From assembly GCA_030038395.1 (NCBI GenBank), contig JASHOZ010000045.1:1-36691 (forward strand): a stretch of DNA of 36,691 nt, given 5' to 3'. Numbering within the stretch: the first letter of the stretch is position 1; every line of letters starts with the position of its first letter. The notes below the pieces were generated by a model. That model saw only the letters and a list, made by a program, of their open reading frames with translations, was not told the DNA's origin and searched no databases. Source of the stretch: Nitrososphaerales archaeon (GTDB lineage Archaea; Thermoproteota; Nitrososphaeria; Nitrososphaerales; Gagatemarchaeaceae). The position numbers were made by a program, and so were the translations under genes. Below are positions 3,085 to 35,504 of this stretch, piece after piece.

Positions 3085-3239
3085 GGGCCCGTAGCCTAGA
3101 CTTCCGTCAGGGGAACTGTGTGCTCGACAGTCTGCGCACGCCTCAGATACGGATCAGGGCATCAACGACACTCGGTGCAGGCCTGCGGCTCGCCTGAGCG
3201 GAGAGCTGAGGGTCGTGGGTTCAAATCCCACCGGGCCCG
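3085..3239 (+). tRNA. tRNA-Arg (anticodon GCG) with three introns
   Basis: The acceptor arms GGGCCCG (3085-3091) and CGGGCCC (3232-3238) pair perfectly; G73 is 3239. The T arm is GTGGG/TTCAAAT/CCCAC (3215-3231). The D arm is GCCT (3094-3097) with GGGC (3157-3160), and the D loop holds G18 G19 A20 (3151-3153); A20 and C35 are arginine identity bases. After removing introns 3165-3180 (16 nt, position 29/30) and 3189-3203 (15 nt, position 37/38), the anticodon arm reads TCAGC-CTGCGGA-GCTGA, with a perfect 5-bp stem, U33 and anticodon GCG. Both introns form clear BHB motifs: central helix 3159-3162 with 3175-3178, and 3183-3186 with 3198-3201, each with 3-nt bulges at the cuts. A third insertion of about 49 nt (about 3102-3150) interrupts the D loop near 17/18; I could not place its exact borders. 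CCA is not encoded. Confidence 0.8.
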
Positions 3240-5827: not shown

Positions 5828-6442
5828 TCACATGTCTGCGCTACTGCGGAGAGGCGATGCTGGGAGATTCGGCGTGAGTTTGTTCAGTAGCTCTGCAGAA
5901 TTGGCACTGACGAACCTATCCCATCTGTGACTGTATATCGCCTCGATCGGCATATCCTTCGTTGTAACGATGCCTCGCTCCATACAAAAGCGATAGGTCA
6001 TCCCGGACATCTTACTTGCTTCGAACCCCTGTAGAGCGGGAACCCTAGATGCCACGTTCCAAGCTTTCAAAGCAGCTACCCCACTCCAGCTGTACCGAAC
6101 AGGCTTTCCGGCTGCAATCTTTGCATCCTCAGACTCGATACACCTCTCGAAACTTGAATACGCTGCTCGCAACTTGGATAAACCTGCTTCTGTTGAGCCA
6201 CGCCAAAACCACGCTTCTGAGAAGAGCGGGTAGAGGTTGACAGCTTCACCGAAACACTTCAACGCCTCTTCTTGCCTATTAGCCAGGAAGAGGTACATTC
6301 CCTTGGAGAACCAATGACCGGGTAGATGAGGATTGAAGAAACCATCGAGAATTCGCAGGGCGCCCACGTAGTCCTTCCTGTTTGCTGCTTCTTCCACTTG
6401 GTGCCACTCTTCCACCTGTCGCCTCGTATTCTCGTCTAGCAA
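5828..6442 (-). CDS. TPR-repeat protein, last gene of the Nudix-2H/MPE operon
   Basis: The 204-residue cytosolic protein has TPR-like helix pairs at about residues 8-115. The units read HWFSKGMYLFLANRQEEALKCF, then EAWFWRGSTEAGLSKLRAAYSSF (each quoted only for its pattern of W/G/A/Y/A positions). The C-terminal third has a conserved-looking EAIYSHRWDRF. Its ATG overlaps the end of the upstream 2H/metallophosphoesterase gene by a few bases, so the two are translationally coupled. It is likely a scaffold or partner-binding subunit for the phosphoesterase. No enzymatic motif is visible. Confidence 0.65.
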   Translation of the reverse strand: MLDENTRRQVEEWHQVEEAANRKDYVGALRILDGFFNPHLPGHWFSKGMYLFLANRQEEALKCFGEAVNLYPLFSEAWFWRGSTEAGLSKLRAAYSSFERCIESEDAKIAAGKPVRYSWSGVAALKAWNVASRVPALQGFEASKMSGMTYRFCMERGIVTTKDMPIEAIYSHRWDRFVSANSAELLNKLTPNLPASPLRSSADM

Positions 6443-7614
6443 TGGGAAATCCTCAGTAAGAGGTCATCCAACGAAAGAGGGGCATAGCCTGTCATTTCCA
6501 CGCAGGCGTTGACAGTCTTCTTGCCGCAGTTGATAAACGGGTAATCCGTGGGGCTGTTGTTGTGCTTGTCCCCATGCACCATCCATCCGCTCCAGTTGGA
6601 TGGCCTCAACGGGTCATGAGTGAGCATGAGGTCCCTCCCTTCGTACCTGACGTAGAACTCGCTCGGGATCTCTAGGGCCTTTGTAATGGGATCCAAGTCG
6701 TGGTTGCCCCTGATGAAGAAGACCCTCCCGCTGAGTCTTCGGAGCCAGTAATCAACCGAACTATGTCCCCTCCCGAATGTCATGTCGCCGAGGAAGAAGA
6801 CGATGTCTTTCTGCCCGACTCGGGCATTCCAGTTCCGCTCGATTGTGTTGTTCATCTCACGAGACGAACCAAAAGGGCGGCTACAATACCGGATGATGTT
6901 TTCGTGGTCGAAGTGGGTGTCGCTGATGACGAAAGCGCGAGTGGCGGAATCTATCTCGAACGGCCTACTTGGCGTTGTCCCAATCAGATCCCCTTCGTTC
7001 CTGGCCTGCATCAGCCTGAGGGTTAGCTTCCTGTTCTCCTGGTTCAGGGACTCATGCCGCGTCAACGACCTTCTTTGAAACAGGTCGAACTCACGTACAA
7101 TCATGCTTCCCCTTCCCAGGAGGGTCACTCGAAGAACAAAATGTTTGATTGAGGGTATCTCAATTGTCTGGAGGAACTTCTTGATCTCGCCGAATTTCCT
7201 GTCGATGTCCTTGAACGCAAGGGTAGCATGGGGGTTGTACTGCCCATCGTCGTGCTTTCCCATCACGCAGAACGTCGAGAGCCTTTCGACGAGTTCGGAC
7301 CGCAGCCTTACCAACTCCTCGGAAGGTTTGATGTTGACCTTCAGGACACGGTTGCCGCCTACCAGATTACCAAAGCTCCCAAGTCCGTCAAACTGGAAAG
7401 TCATCGGCTGGTAGTTGATGCATACCTCATTGAACACGTGGATTAAGCGCCTTTCATCATCAGTCTCGAAGGGACCCGCGATTGTGACATGGGGGACTAC
7501 CCTTCTGTGTGTCACTCCCTGGACATGGAAGATTCTGCTCACCTTTACGGCGGTTTCACGGACGAACTCTCTTGCGGAACCAGTCAGTCTGAACTCGAGG
7601 AGGTAGCCGCCCAT
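6436..7614 (-). CDS. 2H phosphoesterase fused to calcineurin-like metallophosphoesterase
   Basis: The 392-residue fusion has two catalytic domains. Residues 1-180 form a 2H phosphoesterase (2'-5' RNA ligase/cyclic phosphodiesterase superfamily) with both HxT motifs, PHVTIAG (H42, T44) and PHATLAF (H129, T131). Residues about 225-392 form a calcineurin-like metallophosphoesterase: SDTHFDH (D232, H234), LGDMTFG (D277), RGNHD (N304, H305), LTHDP (H333) and VHGDKH (H348). All metal ligands are present, so both halves appear active. 2H enzymes open 2',3'-cyclic or ADP-ribose 1'',2''-cyclic phosphates, and a metallophosphoesterase could hydrolyse the product further. The gene lies 3 nt after the Nudix gene and overlaps the TPR gene, forming one operon. 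Substrate is inferred, not known. Confidence 0.85.
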   Translation of the reverse strand: MGGYLLEFRLTGSAREFVRETAVKVSRIFHVQGVTHRRVVPHVTIAGPFETDDERRLIHVFNEVCINYQPMTFQFDGLGSFGNLVGGNRVLKVNIKPSEELVRLRSELVERLSTFCVMGKHDDGQYNPHATLAFKDIDRKFGEIKKFLQTIEIPSIKHFVLRVTLLGRGSMIVREFDLFQRRSLTRHESLNQENRKLTLRLMQARNEGDLIGTTPSRPFEIDSATRAFVISDTHFDHENIIRYCSRPFGSSREMNNTIERNWNARVGQKDIVFFLGDMTFGRGHSSVDYWLRRLSGRVFFIRGNHDLDPITKALEIPSEFYVRYEGRDLMLTHDPLRPSNWSGWMVHGDKHNNSPTDYPFINCGKKTVNACVEMTGYAPLSLDDLLLRISHC

Positions 7615-33341: not shown

Positions 33342-34556
33342 ATGAAGCTCTTCGCCGAAGAGACGAGGGCGAAACGGGCGGGGCAGCTTGTCGCGGCCTC
33401 TATTCTGTTCTTGATGCTTGCGTTCGTTGCGACCAATGGCGTCCGGGCTTCCGCTAGTTACACCCTCGGCATCACGATCACCACAGGTGACTCGCCCGCG
33501 GGTATCGCGATCAACACGGCCAACGGCAAGATCTACGTGGCGGACTTGGAAGACAACAACGTGACGGTCATTGATGGCGCCACCAACGTCCCTAGTGTAA
33601 ACGTGACGATCGGATACAACGCCGAGCCGGCCGCGGTCGCCGTCGACCCGACGACAGGGACCTACTACGTGGCGGACTCCTCGAGCGACAACGTCACCGT
33701 GATGAGCTCGAGCAACGCCATTCTCGAGAACCTTAGCGTCGGCTTGGACCCGATCGCGGTCGCGTACGACCCCGTGACCAACGACGTGTACGTGGCGAAC
33801 TACCTCAGCAGCAACATCACCGTGATCAGTGCTTCCACCAACCAGATCGTCGGCAACCTGACGTGCGGCGACACCCCGCAAGCAATCGCGGTCAACACCG
33901 TTACGGGCACAATCTACGTCGCCGACGCCGCAGACGACAACGTGACGGTCATCAACACGGCAGGGCAGCAAGTCGCCAACGTGACGGTGGGCACTGAACC
34001 TTACTCCATAGCGGTGGACTCGCTCACAGGGAACGTCTACGTCGCGAACGTCTACGGCGGCCCTGACATCTCTGTGATAAGCAACGCCACAAACACAGTG
34101 ACGGGCTCGCTCGGTTCGGGCTACGGTCCGGATGGCGTCGCCGTCCTCTCGTCTCCCACGTCGCCGACGCTGTATGTCGCCGACAGCCTTGACGACAACG
34201 TGACCGTCGTCAACCTGTCGACCGGGGCAGAAGTGGTCAACCTGACCGTCGGTCAGGACCCGGTCGCAGTCGCCGTGAATCCCTCGACTGGAGAGGCGTA
34301 CGTCGTGAACGAGTACAGCAGCACCCTTTCGGTGATCCAGGGTCCAGCGGTCACTTCGCAGACCACGACCACCTCCAGCGGTCAACCGACGTCTACGACA
34401 ACCTCGTCATCCACCCCCACGACGACTACGACAACCTCGTCGTCGTCTTCCGGAATTCCCGAGTTCCCGCTGCAGCTAGGACTGGCGTTCGGGGTCACCG
34501 CCGCAATCGTCGTCTCGTACGTGGCGGCGAGACGCGTCTCCAACGCGCGGTCGTAG
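33342..34556 (+). CDS. YVTN beta-propeller surface protein with PEF-type C-terminal sorting signal
   Basis: The 404-residue protein has a signal peptide (about 15-37). Seven or so YVTN repeats (KIYVADLEDNNVTVID, VYVANYLSSNITVIS and others) form a propeller, with an N-x-T sequon recurring in most blades. A Thr/Ser-rich stalk (about 350-380) follows. The C-terminus is IPEFP, a hydrophobic helix LGLAFGVTAAIVVSYVA, then ARR. This tripartite signal (PEF motif, helix, basic end) is that of PEF/PEFG-CTERM proteins processed by archaeosortases. The archaeosortase gene starts 3 nt after the stop. ATG 33342 is preceded by a GGAGG-like sequence and a TATA box 29 nt upstream. Confidence 0.85.
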   Translation: MKLFAEETRAKRAGQLVAASILFLMLAFVATNGVRASASYTLGITITTGDSPAGIAINTANGKIYVADLEDNNVTVIDGATNVPSVNVTIGYNAEPAAVAVDPTTGTYYVADSSSDNVTVMSSSNAILENLSVGLDPIAVAYDPVTNDVYVANYLSSNITVISASTNQIVGNLTCGDTPQAIAVNTVTGTIYVADAADDNVTVINTAGQQVANVTVGTEPYSIAVDSLTGNVYVANVYGGPDISVISNATNTVTGSLGSGYGPDGVAVLSSPTSPTLYVADSLDDNVTVVNLSTGAEVVNLTVGQDPVAVAVNPSTGEAYVVNEYSSTLSVIQGPAVTSQTTTTSSGQPTSTTTSSSTPTTTTTTSSSSSGIPEFPLQLGLAFGVTAAIVVSYVAARRVSNARS

Positions 34557-34559
34557 GCT

Positions 34560-35504
34560 TTGAGACGCCCCGGTAAAGGCGTCGAGAGATTCGCCGGCTG
34601 GCTCCTACTGTCGTCGGCCGCCGTCCTCATCCTGTATCTGCCTGAGGTCTATGCGTTCTTTGACCTGCTCAACTCGCAGTTGAACGAGAACTTCGGCACG
34701 GCCTTCCCCGCGATTCCGTTCGCCGCCCTCCTTGCGGCTCTCTTCGCCCTGCGATGGGGGGACCTGTCAGCCGTTCTGTCGCAGGAGGGAGCGATGCGCA
34801 CTCACATGAGAACACGTGCAGTCGGGCTCGTTCTCGTCCTTTCTCCCCTGGCAATCACCCCGTACTCGGTCGGGTCTCTCGAGCTCTCGGCAGCGACCCT
34901 CGTGCTCGTCTTCTACGGCGTCGCTTTGGCCCTGAACCCGTTGACATCTAGGATACTTCTCCCTTACGCCGCGCTATGCGCCGCGGGGGTCACGGTGCCT
35001 TCGGCGATCGAATACCTCTTCGGAGAGCCCCTGGCTGGGCTTTCGTCCTCGCTGTCAGCCGCCATGGTAGCGCTCAGCGGCATCCCGGTGACCTGGCAAG
35101 GGACACAGTTCGAGTTCGTGTCGAAGGTAGGGGGGGTCGTCAGCGCGACCGTCACGCCCGGATGCTCCAGCGTCCTTTCAGTCACCACATTCCTCGGCCT
35201 GCTCGGCCTGATGTACTTCGACATGCGGAGGGAACTGTCGGCGACGGTGAAACTGGCGGTGGTCGGGGTCGTCTGCCTCGTGTTCCTCAACTCTGCCCGC
35301 ATCCTAATACTCATCTGGGCCGGGTACATGGACGGCGCCGCAGCCCTATGGGGCCTCCACAACTGGATCGGGTACGCGATATTCATCGGGTTCTACCTAG
35401 TCGTCCTAGTCGTCTACTCTAGGATGAAGCCCGCGGGTGGTGCGGGCGGGGCCGCGGGAACGGCTCTCCGGCCTGGGACGGGATCAGGCCGCCCGGACCT
35501 CTGA
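34560..35504 (+). CDS. Archaeosortase/exosortase family transpeptidase
   Basis: The 314-residue polytopic membrane protein has about eight hydrophobic helices. The catalytic triad of the exosortase/archaeosortase family is complete: TPGCSSVLS (C202), LNSARILILIW (R247) and LHNWIGYAIF (H267), each at a membrane-helix end. These enzymes cut C-terminal PEF/PGF-type signals and attach the protein to a lipid or other envelope component. The start is TTG, 3 nt after the YVTN gene, so the pair is an operon in which the upstream protein is the obvious substrate. The C-terminal 25 residues are Gly/Pro/Ala-rich and probably cytosolic. Confidence 0.88.
   Translation: MRRPGKGVERFAGWLLLSSAAVLILYLPEVYAFFDLLNSQLNENFGTAFPAIPFAALLAALFALRWGDLSAVLSQEGAMRTHMRTRAVGLVLVLSPLAITPYSVGSLELSAATLVLVFYGVALALNPLTSRILLPYAALCAAGVTVPSAIEYLFGEPLAGLSSSLSAAMVALSGIPVTWQGTQFEFVSKVGGVVSATVTPGCSSVLSVTTFLGLLGLMYFDMRRELSATVKLAVVGVVCLVFLNSARILILIWAGYMDGAAALWGLHNWIGYAIFIGFYLVVLVVYSRMKPAGGAGGAAGTALRPGTGSGRPDL

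Follow-up and report, generated by a model that had tools for sequence, protein, structure and literature searches.

The window, by which we mean the whole stretch of 36,691 nucleotides that was analysed, carries a pre-tRNA-Arg(GCG) gene of 155 nt on its plus strand at positions 3085–3239. Both ends are exact and the acceptor, D, T, and anticodon arms are all intact, in agreement with the initial annotation, which had described a multi-intron tRNA-Arg(GCG) with arms that pair across this span. Along the gene, exon 1 (3085–3099, tRNA positions 1–15) is followed by a composite D-loop insert of 48 nt at 15/16 (3100–3147), exon 2 (3148–3164, positions 16–29), an intron of 16 nt at 29/30 (3165–3180), exon 3 (3181–3188, positions 30–37) with the anticodon GCG at 3185–3187, an intron of 15 nt at 37/38 (3189–3203), and exon 4 (3204–3239, positions 38–73). 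The exons were delimited by an ARAGORN splice test, and exon 1 additionally by comparison with orthologs. Once joined, they form a 76-mer that is recognised by ARAGORN as tRNA-Arg(gcg) and is identical at 75 of 76 positions to the spliced ortholog of G014, the sister of the window's genome (G000) by RpoB (96/97); removal of the introns thus restores a standard tRNA. Neither the unspliced precursor nor any of four partly spliced forms that we tried was named tRNA-Arg by ARAGORN, and with introns allowed the form from which only the D-loop insert had been removed was read as tRNA-Ser(gga) with an intron. That 3085–3239 is a real tRNA-Arg(GCG) gene is therefore confirmed. Such genes escape the usual tools: ARAGORN run over the whole window called no tRNA gene, and the Rfam tRNA model matches only the 3′ part (3179–3239) with 20.2 bits, below its cut-off of 29. 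A scan for sigma-70 promoters and terminators, with a consensus unsuited to archaea, was empty.

Introns at 29/30 and 37/38

Archaeal bulge-helix-bulge (BHB) introns of tRNAs have a central helix of 4 bp and two 3-nt bulges, and are cut after the second base of each bulge. When pairs of cuts over the 155 nt were scanned with a strict filter for this motif, three passed, and two of these are the introns at 29/30 (central helix 4, outer helix 4, inner helix 3) and 37/38, both of which conform strictly to the definition. With the exons fixed and the introns shuffled with dinucleotides kept, the 29/30 intron passed in 8 of 20,000 trials and the 37/38 intron in 103 of 20,000, and the two together never did (0). 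The textbook motifs proposed for these two introns in the initial annotation thus held up in both the scan and the shuffles. An intron at 29/30 is also present in G014, G006, G016, G015 (18 nt, strict), G001, G019, and G002, and one at 37/38 in G014 and G041; both introns of G014 are 14 nt long and differ in sequence from those of the window gene. By a crude fit, 19 of the 27 tRNA genes recovered in the window's own genome (loci L001–L031) have inserts, as does L005 by comparison, making this an intron-rich tRNA set with D-loop inserts at 15/16 in several isotypes.

A probable intron within an intron in the D loop

G014, G006, and others have orthologs that lack the D-loop insert. Because the D loop of such orthologs has the sequence AG-YAC-GG, we place the insert at 15/16 with a length of 48 nt; an insertion of about 49 nt near 17/18 had been proposed, which is right as to its existence and is corrected here in size and position. 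ARAGORN accepts a one-base shift of this register equally well. Taken whole, the insert offers no BHB for removal in one step and not a single central-helix pair at the 15/16 cuts, and its folding energy is no more stable than that of shuffles (z = +0.16).

We searched the insert for nested solutions, using criteria that were set after the sequences had been seen, namely an inner central helix of 4 pairs, an inner helix of at least 4 pairs, and restoration of the outer motif. There was one solution, in which a 31-nt intron (3116–3146) lies in the 3′ splice-site bulge of a 17-nt intron, whose nucleotides 1–16 are at 3100–3115 and whose nucleotide 17, placed by the nested solution and the ARAGORN splice test, is at 3147. 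Any nested solution at all was found in 5 of 4,000 shuffled inserts, none of which had an inner helix as long (7 pairs). Taking out 3116–3146 leaves a 17-mer with a pattern like that of the 17-nt inserts of relatives, and register tests together with the occurrence of the 17-nt version without the inner intron in G017, G024, G022, and G021 support the outer boundaries. The inner BHB has a strict core and an outer helix of one pair followed by a bulged C, which is why the strict scan of the 155 nt missed it; the outer BHB is relaxed, with three of four central pairs and no outer helix. An unguided splice optimiser did not find the nested solution; the D-loop excisions that it preferred, with three of four central pairs, were rejected as they left altered or odd D arms unlike those of the orthologs. 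The suspicion in the initial annotation that this insert holds nested introns was well founded and its count of three introns is probably one short, the insert being best read as two; from its sequence, the gene appears to contain a predicted total of four introns of 31, 17, 16, and 15 nt.

Under the strict criteria, three of seven distinct composite inserts have a nested solution, and the other four, all versions of a single inner sequence, combine 4 central pairs with an inner helix of 1–2 pairs before an interruption. The cut sites are not identical, the inner cuts chosen by the program being off the register of the window gene by 2 nt in G020 and by 1 nt in the insert of Candidatus Gagatemarchaeum.

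The pairing of D-loop introns with their own D stems was compared among 33 inserts, of which 24 simple ones and the seven composites were used; L027, with an ambiguous 3′ end, and L050 were left out. D-stem bases 11–13 pair with the 3′ end of the intron in all 24 simple 15/16 inserts, which represent seven D-stem sequences. After foreign D stems were swapped in, pairing was seen in 41 of 144 combinations, and the permuted mean was 10.2 with none of 20,000 permutations reaching 24; related rows are non-independent, and every arm of the test could use the best of three registers. Intact, the seven composites form 0–1 of the 3 D-stem pairs; removing the inner intron raises this to 3 of 3 in every one (7/7), the removed piece being our own choice or, in two cases, the program's. 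The omitted L050 has 34 nt and 1 of 3 pairs, which counts against a universal rule. This 34-nt D-loop insert (L050/L100) lies in an arginine tRNA gene of G028, from another family of the order, and has no BHB pairing at 15/16.

The same locus in relatives and alternative readings

The outer intron exists elsewhere without the inner one, and the stages can be followed at one syntenic GCG locus, where G005/G003 have no insert, G022 has 17 nt, and G007 has a composite of 17 + 33 nt. The 1.5-kb flanks upstream of the gene are collinear among these genomes with 82–88% identity, and the insert-free gene of G005/G003 matches the exons of G007 at 76 of 76 nt, so that G007 differs by its 50-nt insert at 15/16. 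G005 and G003 are near-identical in RpoB, and G045 and G007 at the GCG locus, and neither pair is independent. The G014 gene has no D-loop insert, its spliced form differs from that of the window gene at one position, and upstream synteny was not found between the two.

The composite pattern was searched in the form GCCCGTAGCCTAGACT-N(1-31)-GGGGAA, which passes over composites of other forms. Of 400 genomes drawn from the order, 8 contain it, and these belong to a single family. The carriers are 7 of the 31 genomes of the genus (G000, G007, G013, G015, G020, G045, and G046) and G142 from another genus of the family. In all 1637 bases compared, the G142 sequence is identical to that of Candidatus Gagatemarchaeum stordalenia, and the family is accordingly taken to be Gagatemarchaeaceae (PMC10640624, from the portion of the text available). 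The lineage is Nitrososphaerota, in the family of Candidatus Gagatemarchaeum, and not Thermoproteales, which the initial annotation had named as the main home of multi-intron tRNAs. G015 may also have four introns, to judge from its sequence: a nested D-loop pair, the one at 29/30, and a 13-nt insert in the variable loop, which the program did not call and which was placed by likeness to those cut from G016, G001, G002, and G023. An RpoB tree was built for 23 of the 25 genomes with a match, leaving out G041, which was badly placed in two earlier builds, and the short G042. On this tree, labeled by hand for 20 rows and with no GCG gene found for the other 3, the composite state is scattered, with 4 rows requiring 4 changes, a pattern that repeated loss, transfer, or repeated gain could each explain.

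The insert as a whole can fold into a single hairpin, and broad-specificity endonucleases can cut relaxed motifs (PMC6379350, as far as its text was available), so it is conceivable that there are three introns and that the D loop holds a single 48-nt intron, enlarged by expansion and cut in one step through such a motif. We regard this as improbable: the 15/16 cuts lack any central-helix pair, the seven composites form 0–1 of 3 pairs against 3 of 3 in the 24 simple inserts, and at the G022 syntenic locus the 17-nt intron exists alone. The core of the inner BHB is better formed than that of the outer one, which would fit removal of the inner part only, with 17 nt retained as an enlarged D loop. 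This is very unlikely, since across tRNA families simple 15/16 inserts have 3′ ends that suit their own D stems, the form retaining the 17 nt goes uncalled by ARAGORN, and there are insert-free orthologs with exons identical to those of G007.

That the gene is decayed or an artefact of assembly, as the fragmented state of the genome (69 contigs, 90.7% complete) might suggest, seems the least probable of all. Every stem is intact, two strict BHBs have been kept, the same type of insert recurs in other genomes, and CGC and CGT codons are in use (24 of 3,612 codons in seven ORFs of the window). Moreover, no second GCG gene, for which the initial annotation had proposed to look, turned up in a 5′-end search of this genome: four gene starts differ from GGGCCCGTAGCCTAG by no more than one base and belong by sequence to a GCG, a TCG, a CCG, and a Lys gene, in a search that would miss a GCG gene with a different 5′ end. 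In G043, two tRNA-Arg(GCG) genes (L145 and L146) lie about 1.3 kb apart, one of them with a damaged T arm. With these readings weighed, we assign a probability of about 0.8 to a functional tRNA-Arg(GCG) with four predicted protein-spliced BHB introns, the 31-nt one nested in the 3′ splice-site bulge of the 17-nt one.

Predicted splicing, possible spread, and known intron architectures

The GGGG strand of the outer D-loop intron (3110–3113) can serve two helices in turn, and therefore inner-first splicing is implied, in which the inner D-loop intron should leave before the outer one in an ordered excision. In the precursor, GGGG would pair with a CCTC close to where the inner intron ends and so form the inner BHB, which a splicing endonuclease of the two-subunit, alpha-beta type would cut before a ligase joins the ends. 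With the inner intron gone, the same GGGG would pair with C11-C12-U13 of the D stem and create the outer BHB, which would be cut next, after which the D stem would pair with G22–G24. The introns at 29/30 and 37/38 would be removed as ordinary archaeal BHB introns.

Matches to the splicing endonuclease model PF01974 are present in 36 of 41 genomes, with two matches in 26 of 41 and in 13 of the 24 other genomes of the genus; G022 is one that has genes for both the alpha and the beta subunit. The window's own genome has one match, which resembles solved tRNA endonucleases and by eye is without the catalytic His of the G014 protein; a gene for the catalytic subunit was not found in this 90.7%-complete assembly. 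The G014 endonuclease is of the catalytic type, is closest to Aeropyrum pernix EndA (3p1z_B, E = 2.9e-39), and in alignment to it keeps the lysine counted as Lys44 of the specificity loop, a loop whose role is treated in the available part of PMC6379350. The alpha2-beta2 type has been assigned to Thaumarchaeota (PMC4090602, available in part), and we infer that this organism has an alpha-beta-type enzyme, one subunit gene of which is missing from the assembly. About 3 kb from the tRNA gene, a protein encoded at 6436–7614 on the minus strand fuses a LigT/2′-5′ RNA ligase-like domain to a calcineurin-like phosphoesterase, and could conceivably act in the processing of RNA ends. Elsewhere in the window (33342–35504), a beta-propeller repeat protein adjoins an exosortase/archaeosortase-like protein.

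In G045, one inner intron sequence occurs in the D loops of both tRNA-Arg(TCG) and tRNA-Arg(GCG) (L096/L165 and L108/L123), as if copied. The core of this inner intron was found with at most 3 mismatches in 7 of the 31 genomes of the genus and lies within composite D-loop introns in G007, G013, G015, G045, and G046; three matches with 3 mismatches, in G013, G005, and G017, lie outside composite D-loop introns. The same inner intron was sought in viral contigs and not found there. At L114 (G013) and L183 (G015), truncated arginine-type tRNA 5′ ends stop in the D arm and are followed by other sequence, and look like integration scars. We lean slightly toward a model in which resident D-loop introns receive further BHB introns in their splice-site bulges, the newcomers use the pairing strand of their host and thereby force the order of splicing, and the resulting composites spread between arginine isoacceptors; this gene would then be the first tRNA in which four introns are known. 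A composite shared by two arginine isoacceptors could also have arisen by gene conversion. These genes bear on how tRNA introns are gained, as no intron, a 17-nt intron, and an intron within an intron occur at one syntenic locus of close relatives, and they open two questions to direct testing, namely whether existing splice motifs are where new introns land, and whether a common pairing strand enforces the order of splicing.

Overall, the initial observation was borne out and extended, and the gene is probably a variant of a known archaeal intron architecture, a view whose strength lies in anatomy and comparison of sequences. Among the literature matches listed, from a coverage that leaves out most subscription journals, there was no four-intron archaeal tRNA and no intron inside a D-loop intron. 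Multi-intron tRNAs of Pyrobaculum, Thermofilum, and other archaea likewise have several BHB introns per tRNA at canonical and noncanonical sites; the available portions of PMC8450103 and PMC4033280 put the maximum at three per archaeal tRNA, whereas four are predicted here, in a family of Nitrososphaerota. The accessible text of PMC8450103 describes neighbouring introns that lie too close together for the BHB of the next to form until the first has been removed, and nested archaeal tRNA introns as such have already been reported, according to the part of PMC3978253 that cites Sugahara 2007 and Tocchini-Valentini 2009, the last intron forming its BHB only after the others leave. Compared with those cases, as summarised there, the inner intron here lies within a D-loop intron, the two have a common pairing strand, and relatives still have the state free of the inner intron. 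Intron transposition in Thermoproteales (Fujishima 2010, as related in the available parts of PMC4090602 and PMC4033280) similarly placed like introns in different tRNA genes, as in the GCG and TCG genes of G045, but here it is a composite intron that occupies the same site in two arginine isoacceptors.
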